From Halanaerobium salsuginis (GTDB lineage Bacteria > Bacillota > Halanaerobiia > Halanaerobiales > Halanaerobiaceae): 58,943 nt of DNA. The stretch is taken from assembly GCF_900114545.1 (NCBI RefSeq), contig NZ_FOTI01000017.1, positions 1-58,943 of the forward strand. The letters are read 5' to 3'. Both the position numbers and the translations under genes were made by a program. The notes under the pieces were generated by a model, which was not told where the DNA came from, made no database searches, and saw only the letters and a list, made by a program, of their open reading frames with translations. Every line of letters begins with the position of its first letter. Position 1 is the stretch's first letter. This document shows, piece after piece, positions 43,721 through 50,054 of the stretch.

Positions 43721-44320
43721 TTATTTATAAACTTTAACTCTTTCCTTAAGATCAACAAAATCCTTTGCATCAGGTTCTCCGTCCGGACTACCAAAAGGCA
43801 TCTGAGCTACAAAACGCCAGTTATCAGGAATATCCCATTCTGCTTTTACTTGCTCTTCAATTAATTCTGTATAATGCTGTAGTGATACACCTAGTCCTTC
43901 TGCTTCTAATAATGTCCAGATATTACACTGCAGCATACCACTGGCATGTTCTGACCAGACAGGAAAATTTTCTTTATAAAGTGGAAACTGTTCCTGTAGA
44001 GATTCCACAATAGATTTATCTTCATAAAATAAAATGGTTCCATAGCCACTCCGAAATCCAGCAATTTTCGCCTGACTTTGAGCAAAACTATCTGCTGGAA
44101 CAACTTCTTTTAAAGCAGCTTCTACAATATCCCAAAATTTAATATGCTGGTCACCAAATAATAAAATAATTCTACCAGTCTGGGAGTTAAATGCTGTTGG
44201 ATTATGTTTTACAGCATGATTAATTACCTCTTCTATTTTATCTTCTGAAATAATTTCTTCATCACTAATCTCATAATAACTTCTTCTATCAGCAATTGCT
44301 TGATAAATATCTTTTGCCAT
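43721..44320 (-). CDS. Nitroreductase-family oxidoreductase (Frm2/Hbn1-like)
   Basis: 199 residues, FMN-dependent nitroreductase fold. It opens IYQAIADRRSYYEIS; the HNPTAFNSQTGRIILLFGDQH block and QFPLYKENFPVWSEHASGMLQCNIWTLLEAEGLGVSLQHY are typical of the fatty-acid-repression-mutant-like subgroup. Likely a small NAD(P)H-linked flavoprotein for detoxification of quinones or nitro compounds; the physiological substrate is unknown. It follows wrbA across a GC-rich hairpin, suggesting a shared oxidative or electrophile response. ATG start with AGGAGG upstream. Confidence 0.88.
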   Translation of the reverse strand: MAKDIYQAIADRRSYYEISDEEIISEDKIEEVINHAVKHNPTAFNSQTGRIILLFGDQHIKFWDIVEAALKEVVPADSFAQSQAKIAGFRSGYGTILFYEDKSIVESLQEQFPLYKENFPVWSEHASGMLQCNIWTLLEAEGLGVSLQHYTELIEEQVKAEWDIPDNWRFVAQMPFGSPDGEPDAKDFVDLKERVKVYK

Positions 44321-44407: not shown

Positions 44408-45034
44408 TTAATCAACATCTTTTAGCCCAGCAGCTACTTTAGCTACTCGAACTGCTAATTTTTTAGCCATTGATAGATCTTCTTCAACTGGAGTCTTACT
44501 ACCATCTGAACCTGCAATAGTTGAAGGTCCATAAGGTGAACCACCATGCAATTTATCAGACATTAACTCAGGGTTTTGTGAATAAGGAGATCCCACAAAA
44601 ATCATTCCAAAATGCAAAAGCGGGATTAGGGAAGCCAAGATAGTAGATTCCTGACCACCATGAACAGTATTACTACTGCTCATAATTCCTGTTGCTTTTC
44701 CCTCCAGAGAACCTCTGGACCATAATCCACCAGCTGTATCCATAAATTGTTTAACTTGAGCAGGCATATTACCAAAACGAGTAGGTATACCCCACACTAT
44801 TCCATCTGCCCATTCTAAGTCATCCAGGGTAACTTCTTTAATTTCTGACTGCTTTTCCTGAGCTGATAAGTAAGCATCCTGGCTAGACATTGCTTCTTTA
44901 GCAGCAGCTAATTCTGGAATTTTTCTTAGTTTAACTTCATAATCATCCATTTCACTAACTGAATCAGCAGCGGTCTGAGCCATTTTATGCATATGTCCAT
45001 ATGAACTATAATAAGTTACTAATAATTTAGTCAT
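44408..45034 (-). CDS. wrbA: WrbA-type NAD(P)H:quinone oxidoreductase
   Basis: 208 residues, flavodoxin-like. FMN-binding features: TYYSSYGHMHKMAQ (phosphate loop), PTRFGNMPAQVKQFMDTAGGLW and SSNTVHGGQESTILASLIPLLHFGM. WrbA performs two-electron reduction of quinones and avoids radical formation. In a probable anaerobe it would protect against redox-cycling compounds. It forms a unit with the nitroreductase gene (88 bp downstream). ATG start behind AGGGGGAAGAT. Confidence 0.93.
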   Translation of the reverse strand: MTKLLVTYYSSYGHMHKMAQTAADSVSEMDDYEVKLRKIPELAAAKEAMSSQDAYLSAQEKQSEIKEVTLDDLEWADGIVWGIPTRFGNMPAQVKQFMDTAGGLWSRGSLEGKATGIMSSSNTVHGGQESTILASLIPLLHFGMIFVGSPYSQNPELMSDKLHGGSPYGPSTIAGSDGSKTPVEEDLSMAKKLAVRVAKVAAGLKDVD

Positions 45035-45418: not shown

Positions 45419-46162
45419 TTAATTTACTTTCTGCCAGCTGCAAAATTTTATTTCTAAAAAATCTATTACTTTAAATAGGAAATAGCCAAGCAAACTAACA
45501 GCAATGATACCACAATACATTTTGGGATAATTAACCATTGACCAACTATTCATAATATAATAACCAATCCCATAATGAACAGCAAAATTTTCAGCAAAAA
45601 ACAGCACAGCTATACTGGTACCAACTGTAATGCGCAAAGCCGTCAAAATACCTGGCAAAATAGCTGGCAAAACAAGTTGAAAATAAATATCTTTACTTCC
45701 CATACCAAGTGAACGAGCAGAAGCAAAGTATTTACTATCTATATTCCTGACCCCATCTCTTGTTGTAACTATAATTTGAAAGATAATAATTGCAATCAAA
45801 ATAATAACTTTTGATAAGTTACCTAAACCAAAAAGCAGCATAAAAACTGGTAAAAAAGCTATTTTAGGAATAGGATAAAGCAAATAAATTAAAGGCGCTA
45901 AATATTTATCAATCCTTGTGTAAAGTCCGGTTAATACTCCTATACTTACTCCTAAAACAAGTGATATAATAACTGCTGATAAAATCCTGAAAATACTAAA
46001 TAAAAGATTGGGCAGCAGTTCTGGAACTAAGATTTTACTAAAAGTTACTGCAACTAATAATGGTGACGCAATAATATTAGAATCAAGCCAGAAATAAAGT
46101 ATAACCCAGCTAAAAAATACAAACACCAGGGCATAAAAAGTACTAAATTTACTTTGTTTCAT
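45419..46162 (-). CDS. ABC transporter permease (SsuC/TauC/ThiX type)
   Basis: About 247 residues, five to six helices, BPD_transp_1 domain. Family features: LLPNLLFSIFRILSAVIISLVLGVSIG and the EAA loop region FASARSLGMGSKDIYFQLVLPAILPGILTALR. Start set at the ATG at 46160-46162 (AGGTGA eight bases upstream), overlapping the ATPase gene by 14 bp; a GTG at 46174 is the alternative. It completes an ATPase/permease/binding protein set of the nitrate-sulfonate-taurine class. No sulfonate, nitrate or thiamine enzyme is linked, so the cargo is open. Confidence 0.9.
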   Translation of the reverse strand: MKQSKFSTFYALVFVFFSWVILYFWLDSNIIASPLLVAVTFSKILVPELLPNLLFSIFRILSAVIISLVLGVSIGVLTGLYTRIDKYLAPLIYLLYPIPKIAFLPVFMLLFGLGNLSKVIILIAIIIFQIIVTTRDGVRNIDSKYFASARSLGMGSKDIYFQLVLPAILPGILTALRITVGTSIAVLFFAENFAVHYGIGYYIMNSWSMVNYPKMYCGIIAVSLLGYFLFKVIDFLEIKFCSWQKVN

Positions 46163-46904
46163 ACGATAAATCACCTGCTGTTTTAAACTGCATTAGCTGT
46201 CTTAACTTTTTTTGAAGTAAGAAAAATTCTGCTTTTTCACGCAATTTTTCTTCACCAAAATACTGGTTATCTATTAATTTAATTACTTTACCAGCCTGCA
46301 TTACCATAATAGTTTGTCCCAAAAAAACAGCTTCTGCAATATCATGAGTTACAATAACAAAACTCAGCTTTTGCTGTTGGTGAATTTTTAAAATAAGATT
46401 TTGCATTTTTTCTCTTGTTAAAGCATCTAGAGCAGAAAAAGGTTCATCCATTAATAATAGATCTGGCTTTAAAACAAGAGCTCTTCCAATAGCTACTCGC
46501 TGTTTTTGTCCCCCACTTAACTCAGCTGGATAGTTATTAGCTAGCTCCTCTATTTTAAGATCTTTTAAAGTTTGTCCTACAATTTTGGTTATTTTATACT
46601 TTTCATAGCCCCTTATTTTAAGACCTAAAGTAAGATTTTTATAAACTGTTTTCCAGGGGAAAAGTCCATAGTCCTGCAAAATAACTCCAGTTTTCTCCCT
46701 AATCTGAGTTAAATTTTTCCCATTAATGGTTACTGCACCACTATCTGGTTTTTGCAAAGCTGCCAATAAATAAAGCAGTGTAGTTTTTCCACATCCAGAA
46801 GGACCAATTATAGCCAGACTTTTGCCCGCATTAAGTTCAAAATTAATTTCTTTAACTACTGTTTCTGCTTGATAGGCAAAAGTTAAATTTTCTACCTTAA
46901 TCAT
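46149..46904 (-). CDS. ABC transporter ATPase (SsuB/TauB type)
   Basis: 251 residues. Walker A GPSGCGKTT, Q-loop VILQDYGLFPWKTV, signature LSGGQKQRVAIGRAL, Walker B LLLMDEPFSALD and switch VTHD are all intact. The Q-loop DYGLFPWKTV and downstream length fit the nitrate/sulfonate/taurine subfamily. The ATG overlaps the stop of the binding-protein gene by four bases (ATGA) and its own 3' end overlaps the permease gene, so the three are tightly coupled. Confidence 0.94.
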   Translation of the reverse strand: MIKVENLTFAYQAETVVKEINFELNAGKSLAIIGPSGCGKTTLLYLLAALQKPDSGAVTINGKNLTQIREKTGVILQDYGLFPWKTVYKNLTLGLKIRGYEKYKITKIVGQTLKDLKIEELANNYPAELSGGQKQRVAIGRALVLKPDLLLMDEPFSALDALTREKMQNLILKIHQQQKLSFVIVTHDIAEAVFLGQTIMVMQAGKVIKLIDNQYFGEEKLREKAEFFLLQKKLRQLMQFKTAGDLSYETK

Positions 46905-47800
46905 TGCTCAAGATACTTCCTTTCAATAAGGTCTTCATAATTAAGTTCAATTTTACTATTATCTGTTTTCTCTATCCAGTTAATGATTTTAGTTAAATAA
47001 GCTTGACTGGGAACCCGGGCCAAATGATACTCAGGTAAAGCAATTAGAGGTTCAATTTTAGCTGGCAGACCCAGTTTTTCTACTAAAATTTTGCTGGCCA
47101 GACTATCATCCTGCTGAATATCTTTAACAGCATGGTTATAGGCTCTGTGAAAAGCTGCAATTGCTTTATCCTTTTTTTCCAGAGCTGTCTTGGTAAAAAT
47201 CATAGCCTCCGGCATATAATCATATTTATTTGCATAAACTCTTTTTTCCAAACCAGCCAGCTGAGCAGTAGAAGCAAGCGGTTCTGGAATAACAGCCATT
47301 TCTAGCTGACCAGACTTAACCATTTCTAAACGAGCCGGGATAGCGGAAATAAAGACTTTATTAAGTTTATATTTGTCAGCTAAAAATTGTTCTGAAAGAA
47401 AGTTAGAAACACTGACTTCCATCATTCCTACTTTAACTTGATCTTTTTCCTGAAATTCTTTACTAACTAAAATAGGAAAACTACCATCAGTACTAGTAGT
47501 TATTTTAACCGGAAAACCATTATTTACATTGTTAACAAAAGCAATTAAATCTGTCATTGCTCCATCAAGCTCATCACTTTGCAGAGCAGTTTGACGATTA
47601 ACAGCATTATTATAAATATCAATTTTAATTTTAAGCCCTTCAGCAGTAAAATACCCTTTTTCTGCTGCCAGCAAAATTGGGGCAGAATCTACAGCAGGCA
47701 TAATTCCTATTTTAAGTTCTAGCGGCTGTTCTGCTCCAGCTGGACTAACCAGAATAAAGATTAAACTTATTAATAATAAAAATACAAATTTTGCTTTCAT
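46901..47800 (-). CDS. ABC transporter substrate-binding protein (NMT1/SsuA-like)
   Basis: 299 residues from the ATG at 47798-47800, with GGAGGAA seven bases upstream; the signal peptide KAKFVFLLLISLIFILVSPAGA follows at once. An ATG at 47848 would add 16 residues in front of the signal. Family features: LKIGIMPAVDSAPILLAAEKGYFTAEGL and LDGAMTDLIAFVNNV. The related proteins bind nitrate, sulfonates, thiamine pyrimidine precursor or aromatic acids. No thiamine riboswitch is visible upstream. Divergent to the prenyltransferase gene, which may hint at a common pathway; cargo unknown. Confidence 0.88.
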   Translation of the reverse strand: MKAKFVFLLLISLIFILVSPAGAEQPLELKIGIMPAVDSAPILLAAEKGYFTAEGLKIKIDIYNNAVNRQTALQSDELDGAMTDLIAFVNNVNNGFPVKITTSTDGSFPILVSKEFQEKDQVKVGMMEVSVSNFLSEQFLADKYKLNKVFISAIPARLEMVKSGQLEMAVIPEPLASTAQLAGLEKRVYANKYDYMPEAMIFTKTALEKKDKAIAAFHRAYNHAVKDIQQDDSLASKILVEKLGLPAKIEPLIALPEYHLARVPSQAYLTKIINWIEKTDNSKIELNYEDLIERKYLEQ

Positions 47801-47852
47801 AAAATTATTCCTCCTTGGATTACTTAAATTACAAGTTATTTTATTCACTTAT

Positions 47853-47880
47853 ATTATATAGCCTTTGACTACTGTTTTAA
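47853..47880 (-). promoter_or_regulatory. Candidate promoter of the ABC operon
   Basis: On the minus strand TTAAAA (47875-47880) and a perfect TATAAT (47853-47858) are 16 bp apart, about 50 bp before the start of the binding-protein gene. The -35 is poor. Confidence 0.5.
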
Positions 47881-47896
47881 AGCTCAACTACTATTT

Positions 47897-47925
47897 TTGC
47901 ATTAAAATAATAAATATGGCATAAT
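47897..47925 (+). promoter_or_regulatory. Promoter of the prenyltransferase gene
   Basis: TTGCAT (47897-47902) and CATAAT (47920-47925) are separated by 17 bp on the plus strand, about 75 bp before the TTG start. Between this and the divergent promoter are two copies of ACTACT followed by a T-run (47868 and 47887), possibly a regulator site. Confidence 0.6.
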
Positions 47926-48003
47926 ATTTATGTTAAAATTAATAATAAAACTAGCTATATAAAAAAATAAGAACCTCGCCACTCTTTAATAAGGAGCATT
48001 AAA

Positions 48004-48900
48004 TTGACAAAATTAAAATTTTTTAAAGAAATTTGGAAAGCTTCGCGTCCACTTTCATTAACCTTAGCTTTTTATTCCACAACACTTGGTATGGCAATTG
48101 CCCATCTGGAAGAAAAACTTTTTACAGGTAGAACATATTTTGATATAAAATTGATTATTTTAGTTACCCTGGCTGGTATATTTGTTCAGACTGCTACTAA
48201 TTTTATTAATGATTATTTTGAATGTGAATATAAAAATTTACATTTCACAGGTAAAAAATATAATTTTTTTGGTCAAAAAAGAAACTATTTTGATATCTTA
48301 ATCTTTAATTTAGGTTTGCTATCTTTTTTAATTACTGCTCTGTTAGGACTCTGGATTATAAATTTATCAACGGGAAAACTCTTTACAATCGGTTTTTTAG
48401 GACTAATTGGAGGTTATGCTTATACAGGAGAGCCAATTGTTTATAAAAAAAGAGGTCTGGGAACCCCACTTTCTTTTGTTTTAATGGGACCCCTAATGAT
48501 AATGGGAACCTATTTAGTTTTTACTCAGCAATATTCGTGGCTACCATTAGTATTAGGACTGCCAATTAGTCTATTAATCCCCGTTCTAATGTTAAGCAAT
48601 GAATTACGTGATTTTGAGCGGGATAAAAGCCTGGGAATTAAGACTTTAACTGTCCGGATTGGTTTTAAAAATGCAAAACTTCTTTATTTAACTTTGCTCA
48701 GTAGTAGTTATCTATTAACTGTTATTTTTGTGCTAACTGGCTATTATCCAATCAGTACACTAAGTGTTGTTATAACTATTCCTCTAGCAGTTAAAGCTTT
48801 TAAAAATGTAGCCCAAGCCAGAAAAACTGGAGTTCCAGTTACTAATCAGCTGCACTTGAGTTTTGGCCTGCTACAATTATTAGCACTTTTTTTAGCATAA
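48004..48900 (+). CDS. UbiA-family prenyltransferase (MenA-like)
   Basis: 298 residues, about eight helices. First Asp-rich motif at about residue 67-75 (NFINDYFECEYKN, variant of NDxxDxxxD) and second at about 199-208 (NELRDFERDKSLGIKTLTVR). It opens with KASRPLSLTLAFYSTTLGMA as in MenA and related membrane prenyltransferases, which attach a polyprenyl chain to an aromatic or other acceptor. TTG start at 48004-48006 with AAGGAG nine bases upstream. It is the only complete plus-strand gene here. No other quinone-synthesis genes are nearby; the acceptor in a fermentative organism is unknown. Confidence 0.87.
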   Translation: MTKLKFFKEIWKASRPLSLTLAFYSTTLGMAIAHLEEKLFTGRTYFDIKLIILVTLAGIFVQTATNFINDYFECEYKNLHFTGKKYNFFGQKRNYFDILIFNLGLLSFLITALLGLWIINLSTGKLFTIGFLGLIGGYAYTGEPIVYKKRGLGTPLSFVLMGPLMIMGTYLVFTQQYSWLPLVLGLPISLLIPVLMLSNELRDFERDKSLGIKTLTVRIGFKNAKLLYLTLLSSSYLLTVIFVLTGYYPISTLSVVITIPLAVKAFKNVAQARKTGVPVTNQLHLSFGLLQLLALFLA

Positions 48901-48926
48901 ATTAAGCTTAGTTATAAGTCAAATTT

Positions 48927-48950
48927 AGTTATTTTACTAATAAAATAACT
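48927..48950. terminator. Stem-loop between the convergent prenyltransferase and DUF362 genes
   Basis: AGTTATTTTA (48927-48936) pairs perfectly with TAAAATAACT (48941-48950) around CTAA, between the two facing stop codons. It could serve both genes; the U-runs are short. Confidence 0.55.
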
Positions 48951-50054
48951 TTAATTAACTAGTTCAGCCTGCAAAAATTCAAGGATATCGCCGGCAGATG
49001 GGGGACAACCTGGCACAAATTTTTCTGCTTTACTGCAGCATGATCCAATTCCCAAGCCAGCTAACTGCTGTTTTTGGTAATCCTGACCTATTTTAATTGG
49101 CTTTCTGAGCTGATCTAATTTACCCTGTTGATCAATTCTTTTTAAAGCATGAATTAAACTACCATAGCAAGCTGAACAAGCAGAACCTGCTTTTACTTTA
49201 GCTGCCAAATTTTTTATTTTACCATCAGCTCGCAATTGAGTACTCTGATGATCTTGATTGAGCTCAATTACTTCAGCCTGCTCAAGCCTATTTGACCCCA
49301 CACCTAGCTTTGCAGCTAAAGTTATGTATTTTATTTCTGCTGGCTGATAGCCAAGCAGTCTAGCTGCATAGCTGTCAATTAAAACTGGATCATTTCCTAA
49401 CAAAATCCTATTCATCTGAACAGGGTTACCGCCTTCTTCAAAATCAAGATCGCCATAAATACCATCTACAATGATTAGATCTTGTTTTAAAACTTTATTT
49501 AAATAAGCTATTGGAGCATGCAGACCTTGCTGATGAAATTTTCTTTTCTCCCGATTTGAAATACAGCCTTTCATATTTTTTAAAGCACAAGTTATTTTAG
49601 TCTGACAATGACCTTTAAGAACAGGAAAATTAATAATATAATCTGCTTTAAGAGCTGTACTGGCTATTTCCATTTCATAATCTGCTATTTTAATTTTTTG
49701 ATAACTATCCTGCTGCAAATTAAAAAGAGGTAGCTGATAATGGTCGGCTAACTTCTGATAACCGCACACTTGAAAAGCTCTTGTCGTGTTAGCTCCTACC
49801 CAGGATCCTTCCATAATCATTAAATTATTAAAACCACGCAGCTGAAAATATTCTATTACACCAGCTACAATTTCTGGATCAGTAGTAGCTCCTTGCTCAG
49901 CTGGAGTAGCATTAATCAAGTTTGGTTTTAAAGCAATTAAATCAGATTTTTTTAATTGCTGTTCAGGTTTAACTGCTGCCAATATTTCTTTAACCAGCTT
50001 CTTGGCTTGATTACCATAACTAAGATAAATCTTATTATTTAAGCTAGTATTCAC
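48951..50054 (-). CDS. DUF362-domain protein with C-terminal cysteine cluster
   Basis: 367 residues. The DUF362 domain spans about 35-250 (SDLIALKPNLINATPAEQGATTDPEIVAGVIEYF, DYIINFPVLKGHCQTKITCALKNMKGCIS, IVDGIYGDLDFEEGGNPVQMNRILLGNDPVLID). The C-terminal part holds six clustered cysteines (CSACYGSL; GSCCSKAEKFVPGCPPS), suggesting a metal or Fe-S site, different from the usual 4Fe-4S ferredoxin appendage. Function of the family is largely unknown. GTG start at 50052-50054, AAAGGAG twelve bases upstream. It converges on the prenyltransferase gene. Confidence 0.85.
   Translation of the reverse strand: MNTSLNNKIYLSYGNQAKKLVKEILAAVKPEQQLKKSDLIALKPNLINATPAEQGATTDPEIVAGVIEYFQLRGFNNLMIMEGSWVGANTTRAFQVCGYQKLADHYQLPLFNLQQDSYQKIKIADYEMEIASTALKADYIINFPVLKGHCQTKITCALKNMKGCISNREKRKFHQQGLHAPIAYLNKVLKQDLIIVDGIYGDLDFEEGGNPVQMNRILLGNDPVLIDSYAARLLGYQPAEIKYITLAAKLGVGSNRLEQAEVIELNQDHQSTQLRADGKIKNLAAKVKAGSACSACYGSLIHALKRIDQQGKLDQLRKPIKIGQDYQKQQLAGLGIGSCCSKAEKFVPGCPPSAGDILEFLQAELVN

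Follow-up and report, generated by a model that had tools for sequence, protein, structure and literature searches.

The 58,943-nucleotide stretch of DNA from the fermenting halophile Halanaerobium salsuginis analysed here (the window, contig C26 of host genome G000, which is 2.99 Mb long and 99.9% complete) harbors a gene for a UbiA-family membrane prenyltransferase next to the three genes of an ATP-binding cassette (ABC) importer, i.e., a substrate-binding protein (SBP), an ATPase and a permease. It is probable that this importer takes up a soluble, naphthoate-type quinone head group, that the adjacent UbiA prenylates it, and that the quinone formed serves a locus encoding NDH-2 and ApbE elsewhere in the genome. 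The analysis shows the genes themselves, their conservation, the absence of head-group markers and the operons that related importers form with MqnL, MqnP and UbiX; the direction of transport, the ligand, the product and its use are inferred. On a wider proposal we are evenly divided, namely that the importer represents an unnamed and widespread Bacillota family of ABC importers for quinone head groups, which would carry 1,4-dihydroxy-2-naphthoate (DHNA) where paired with a MenA-like UbiA and 1,4-dihydroxy-6-naphthoate where paired with MqnP, MqnL and UbiX.

In the proposed route, other microbes would supply a soluble head-group precursor, most likely a naphthoate such as DHNA. The SBP would bind it in the periplasm and the ATPase and permease would import it, import being the expected direction because SBP-dependent systems import. 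UbiA would join the imported ring to a polyprenyl tail supplied by a HepT-like synthase encoded on contig C62. The resulting (demethyl)menaquinone-like quinone would be reduced by NDH-2 and serve the NDH-2/ApbE locus, and WrbA or a nitroreductase may hold the imported ring reduced. No UbiD is linked to the importer in the window lineage, which suits a substrate that is decarboxylated on prenylation, in the way MenA decarboxylates DHNA. The first-pass annotation of the sequence had suggested that an aromatic acceptor might be imported and prenylated, as a new salvage route. This idea, with its putative cargo and product, is largely supported by the conserved pairing of the genes, by the absence of the early markers tested and by the menaquinone-finishing operons of related importers; the DUF362 gene falls outside it. 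It is also modified, as the importer family is tied to quinone-finishing genes and as the genome encodes, at other sites, a second MenA-like enzyme and a cluster of NDH-2, ApbE and polyprenyl synthase.

Close relatives of the window UbiA (68-78% identity) were found in six further genomes of the genus, which includes Halanaerobium, and thus in 7 of 12 genus genomes, as well as in two of the five genomes of family f7. The importer adjoins UbiA in every one of these seven genus and two f7 copies. UbiA is divergent from the SBP gene in the genus and convergent with the permease gene, on the other side of the importer, in f7, and this opposite placement argues that the link is not just inherited gene order. 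In a scan of the genome collection (13 loci), a divergent UbiA was also present in Ca. Petromonas tenebris, in a Clostridia metagenome-assembled genome (MAG) with two copies, and in Natronobacillus azotifigens. The persistence of the neighbourhood in related species, proposed earlier as a check, is thus observed in changed gene order across distant bacteria. In G019, UbiA is split into two open reading frames (ORFs) near a contig end (L040:5824-6634), through a frameshift or a sequencing error.

The SBP family extends well beyond these copies. A profile search at E 1e-20 matched 107 of 398 genomes of the phylum, and neighbours were examined in 100 of them, five being left out for want of surroundings (G066, G186, G358, G361, G374) and two because no SBP ORF was called (G180, G259). 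A homologue of UbiA, MqnP, UbiD or UbiX stood within five ORFs of the SBP in 41 of these 100 loci (a prenyltransferase in 37, UbiD in 28), as scored with profiles seeded from a part of these very loci. As an internal control, quinone-finishing genes accounted for 77 of 576 ORFs at distances of one to three, vs. 3 of 486 beyond five. In 25 loci, the SBP gene lies in a same-strand run (gaps <120 bp) with UbiD, MqnP or UbiX, and the typical operon, found in many families, is UbiD(MqnL)-UbiA(MqnP)-(UbiX)-SBP-ATPase-permease. All 11 of the UbiD proteins scanned (among 28) passed the TIGR03701 menaquinone-decarboxylase cut-off; the presence of an MqnL decarboxylase suggests 1,4-dihydroxy-6-naphthoate as the substrate in operons of this type. 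MqnP is a label given by place and best match, because the one such protein scanned scored over the general UbiA-like TIGR01475 cut-off and under all three MqnP cut-offs. NDH-2, ApbE, a polyprenyl synthase or NusG_II was found within eight ORFs of the SBP in 12 of the 100 loci. In several Clostridia copies (L127, L129, L130, L132, L142), a regulator resembling the TetR family by eye immediately precedes the gene for the ATPase or for UbiD, and it is possible that it responds to quinones.

The host genome lacks the early steps of head-group synthesis that were searched for. Profile searches of this genome returned no match for PF02621 (MqnA/MqnD), MqnC or MenD, and MenB exceeds its cut-off in none of the 38 genomes of the order, the best host score being 133.9 vs. 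342.7 bits. The earlier remark that no quinone pathway is visible is therefore correct for the window and, as far as the tested head-group genes go, for the whole genome. Likewise, the suggested search for men, mqn and polyprenyl synthase genes revealed no full menaquinone pathway and two polyprenyl synthases. An ordinary MenA at the end of a full menaquinone pathway was accordingly rejected, as the tested early markers (MqnA/D, MqnC, MenD, MenB) are absent. On contig C62 (G000:C62), the gene for a HepT-like polyprenyl synthase adjoins those for ApbE and for an NDH-2-like protein of 586 aa; they likely form a partial flavin-based electron-transfer locus, in an arrangement that resembles part of the flavin-based extracellular electron transfer (FLEET) loci. 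The same trio is found together in the two importer-bearing f7 genomes, Ca. Petromonas and Natronobacillus.

Linkage of the SBP to quinone-finishing genes varies with the early-pathway markers of the genome. Among the 100 loci, it was observed in 29 of 50 genomes without MqnA/D or MenD, in 12 of 32 with a single PF02621 copy, in 0 of 14 with two copies and in 0 of 5 with MenD, one genome (G413) being counted in both the single-copy and MenD groups. MenD was counted only over its cut-off (34 of 88 listed), and the 106 genomes with PF02621 were reduced to 103 by removing those with weak matches only (G139, G144, G408), while second copies were not scored for G117 and G370, where the extra match is a fragment, or for G136, where it is weak. 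The contrast of 41/82 vs. 0/19 gives a Fisher p of 1.4e-5, a value inflated by shared ancestry. MqnC passed its cut-off in none of the no-marker genomes searched (G403 falling just below, 414/428 bits), in six of eight single-PF02621 genomes and in six of six with two copies. A quick tree of 112 SBPs (L040 of G019 left out) strongly supports the clade of the window SBP, of which 12 of 16 members come with UbiA. The linkage label appears in several places on this tree, with at least 10 changes forced by the starred branches. The finishing enzymes differ by lineage: a UbiA with the motif NDYFECEYK in the window clade, a MenA-like UbiA with NDVFDxxKGxD in other families, and MqnP with MqnL in still others, a pattern that fits an old functional tie of the importer that would have been kept with differing finishing enzymes.

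Several observations weigh against this reading. Most of the SBP loci (59 of 100) have no nearby quinone gene, and the importer occurs without adjacent UbiA in the Halanaerobiales MAG loci L057 (G021) and L064 and in G022. Once corrected for the tree, the linkage test is not significant (seven independent pairs, of which 2.6 on average go as expected and none is opposed; median p 0.25). Across the phylum, the association between the SBP and PF02621 is positive, not negative (50/107 vs. 53/291), so that some family members work beside a futalosine pathway or carry other cargo. Identity to SBPs of the operon type is about 30-35%, and a long branch of 1.57 changes per column parts the window clade from them, which renders any transfer of ligand to the window SBP uncertain. 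The NDH-2/ApbE/synthase locus is kept in a genus member without importer and UbiA (G011, L254), and cytochrome bd (CydA) is absent from all 38 genomes of the order; respiratory quinone use through cytochrome bd was rejected on this ground. Finally, a second UbiA of the host scores above the NF004752 cut-off for DHNA polyprenyltransferases (322 vs. 289) and the window UbiA below all such cut-offs. Co-occurrence of SBP and UbiA over the 398 genomes at E 1e-20 was not significant (30/107 vs. 71/291, p 0.52) and gives no support by itself, the test being weak because the UbiA profile misses MqnP-type enzymes.

The prenyltransferase clearly belongs to the UbiA superfamily (PF01040, 87.7 bits vs. 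a gathering score of 34.2), and its AlphaFold2 (AF2) model (predicted local distance difference test score, pLDDT, 79) fits best with UBIAD1 (template-modelling score, TM, 0.74/0.78; E 1.9e-8), whose entry 8djk is the nearest in the PDB by sequence and by fold. Its best NCBIfam scores are to MenA-type families, yet it misses every NCBIfam MenA cut-off (TIGR00751 77.3/102.15; NF004749 122.6/277). The first Asp-rich, metal-binding motif reads NDYFECEYK in 10 of 10 aligned relatives. In MenA, this motif is usually NDxxDxxxGxD, and its aspartates are mostly kept in the other MenA-like proteins compared, unlike in the window clade. Judged by the curated cut-offs and the first motif, the window UbiA is thus MenA-like, yet no MenA. 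It is one of two UbiA-family genes of the host genome, the other being located at C36:6611-7561 (L002:1432-2382), and the two enzymes may act on different acceptors or donors, or at different times. By eye, the C36 gene is flanked by a coaD-like and a patatin-like gene, and a UbiA resembling its product is found in a FLEET-type locus of Natronobacillus (L256:2288-3247).

These features leave room for a distinctly less probable reading, in which the cargo is a non-naphthoate aromatic or quinone (menadione, 4-hydroxybenzoate or another phenol) and UbiA makes a different lipid. The missed MenA and UbiA cut-offs, the altered first motif, the closeness to the UBIAD1 structure and the separate MenA-like enzyme would all agree with such a role, against which stand the MenA-type families that score best with the window UbiA and the menaquinone-specific MqnL with which related importers pair.

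Regarding the importer, the genes for SBP, ATPase and permease overlap in one operon of conserved order, as in an SBP-dependent ABC importer. The first-pass annotation had seen in it a taurine/nitrate-type system, and the broad NMT1/SsuA/Tau class of its three proteins, as well as the majority of family loci devoid of quinone neighbours, would be consistent with an unrelated nutrient (taurine, sulfonate or a thiamine precursor), the adjacency to UbiA then being inherited synteny. This is unlikely, as the equivalog cut-offs for taurine, sulfonate and nitrate importers are all missed (TauC 94/342, SsuC 86.9/347, NtrB 83.4/209, SsuA_fam 46/163.5), the association holds despite a gene order that varies between lineages, the enrichment in quinone genes drops sharply with distance, and tight operons with menaquinone genes occur in many families. 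The cut-offs for Sao importers are missed as well, SaoP being the best NCBIfam match of the permease (122.5/295; SaoA 178/360). Two residues of the SBP, D100 and R173, are invariant in 112 of 112 aligned sequences; a role of R173 as carboxylate ligand is pure conjecture. The AF2 model of the SBP is poor (pLDDT 54) and was not used, so that no statement on its pocket rests on it.

The periplasmic-binding fold is common to MqnA and MqnD, and in a very improbable reading the SBP-like protein is instead a quinone-synthesis enzyme or a sensor, with the ABC components doing something else. In favour of it, many genomes have a single PF02621 and no second copy, and linkage is seen at 12 of 32 such loci; against it, a lipobox-like motif is present in 73 of 112 SBP rows, the Halanaerobial SBPs show a plain signal peptide by eye, ATPase and permease come after the SBP in most loci, and single-PF02621 genomes are equally common without the SBP (40/75). 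A straightforward substitution of the SBP for MqnD is not supported either. Independently, 75 of the 103 phylum genomes with strong PF02621 have one copy only, and in six genomes (G050, G134, G168, G247, G157, G207; loci among L226-L245) the single copy stands between MqnE- and MqnC-like genes; MqnD seems to be missing or replaced in many Bacillota.

The features of the locus are listed in the table below. The five genes named in the first-pass annotation were all recovered as intact ORFs of the expected families by Pfam and NCBIfam scans. Among the 48 non-overlapping ORFs of at least 100 aa in the window, UbiA is indeed the only one on the plus strand, divergent from the importer operon (45419-47800, minus strand) and convergent with DUF362, as had been described. 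The SBP ORF was listed as 46901-47848 on the minus strand; its likelier start is the ATG at 47800, shortly after an AAGGAGG Shine-Dalgarno sequence, in agreement with the alignment, which leaves a gap of about 203 bp to the UbiA start. As to the overlapping regulatory DNA suggested for this gap, both strands hold promoter-like matches there, but matches of this kind outnumber those in shuffled sequence throughout this AT-rich stretch (41 observed vs. a shuffle mean of 22.4), so that shared regulation is no more than a possibility. An Rfam scan of the window detected no riboswitch or other match. WrbA adjoins the importer in seven of seven genus copies and the nitroreductase in six of seven; these two are possible accessory genes of the importer locus. 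In each copy of the Clostridia MAG, the permease gene is followed by a different nitroreductase gene (one confirmed by Pfam). On the contrary, the grouping of DUF362 with the cluster does not extend beyond the genus. Five genus copies carry DUF362, whereas G014 lacks it and the truncated contig of G019 shows none; it was rejected as a core part, being absent from the f7, Petromonas, Clostridia MAG and Natronobacillus loci. Another DUF362 gene follows the permease in L165 (G319). A defence role was discarded, as neither UbiA nor DUF362 has a PADLOC match.

Table. Features of the importer-UbiA locus in the window and of the associated locus on contig C62.
Feature	Position	Strand	Remarks
UbiA-family membrane prenyltransferase, MenA/UBIAD1-like, 298 aa	48004..48900	+	TTG start; Pfam UbiA PF01040 87.7 bits
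Substrate-binding protein (SBP; NMT1/SsuA-like, exported)	46901..47800	-	Pfam NMT1_2 40.8 bits
Importer ABC ATPase	46149..46904	-	Pfam ABC_tran 121.7 bits; overlaps SBP and permease genes
Importer ABC permease	45419..46174	-	Pfam BPD_transp_1 78.1 bits
UbiA/importer shared upstream region	47801..48003	.	tentative promoter-like matches on either strand
WrbA NAD(P)H:quinone oxidoreductase	44408..45034	-	NF002999 211 bits (cut-off 141); TIGR01755 194.6 (cut-off 132.5)
Nitroreductase-family protein	43721..44320	-	Pfam Nitroreductase 63.7 bits
DUF362 protein, Cys-rich C-terminus	48951..50054	-	Pfam DUF362 187 bits
HepT-like synthase/ApbE/NDH-2 locus	L252 = C62:28001-46000		genes within 8500-12556 of L252

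In many anaerobes, quinone synthesis is reduced to its last steps, and the importer family offers a specific and testable transporter candidate. If the proposal of an imported and prenylated head group is true, it would explain quinone auxotrophy and cross-feeding in fermenters, offer a marker by which quinone salvage could be read from genomes, and reveal an unrecognised quinone-linked redox route in Halanaerobium. On the wider proposal of a dedicated importer family, the missing transporters of quinone-precursor cross-feeding would be at hand, and many "fermenters" would be quinone users by salvage. In the open-access literature, we found no description of an ABC importer of quinone precursors, which may be described elsewhere, and no quinone measurements in Halanaerobium.

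Compared with known systems, the window UbiA shares with MenA and UBIAD1 the fold, the second motif NELRDxxRD, the MenA-type best family scores and UBIAD1 as nearest PDB entry; it differs by falling under all MenA cut-offs, by its first motif and by having an importer as neighbour instead of men genes. The importer is of the same ABC class as the Tau, Ssu, Nrt and Sao systems, but it misses all their equivalog cut-offs and its neighbours are quinone genes. FLEET loci, reported in Listeria and lactic acid bacteria (PMC8837199), share adjacent NDH-2, ApbE and polyprenyl synthase genes with the C62 locus. On the contrary, no EetA/EetB/PplA-like gene was noticed in the 18 kb read, no genome-wide search being made, and the importer and the window UbiA sit elsewhere than the C62 locus. 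Ravcheev and Thiele (2016; PMC4746308), in the sections consulted, proposed an exchange of precursors and argued that there should be importers for soluble precursors of quinones, whose genes "remain to be annotated", prediction and then validation being needed. The late futalosine genes mqnP, mqnL and mqnM predicted there lie in the same operon as related importers in many Bacillota; those sections name no transporter, and the window lineage has a lone MenA-like enzyme with no linked UbiD or UbiX. A parallel in physiology comes from Lactiplantibacillus plantarum, a quinone auxotroph that uses exogenous DHNA and shares with the host the lack of head-group synthesis together with a MenA-type enzyme, a polyprenyl synthase and NDH-2; in the part of that report consulted (PMC10746273), the uptake route is yet to be identified, whereas an ABC importer is proposed here.

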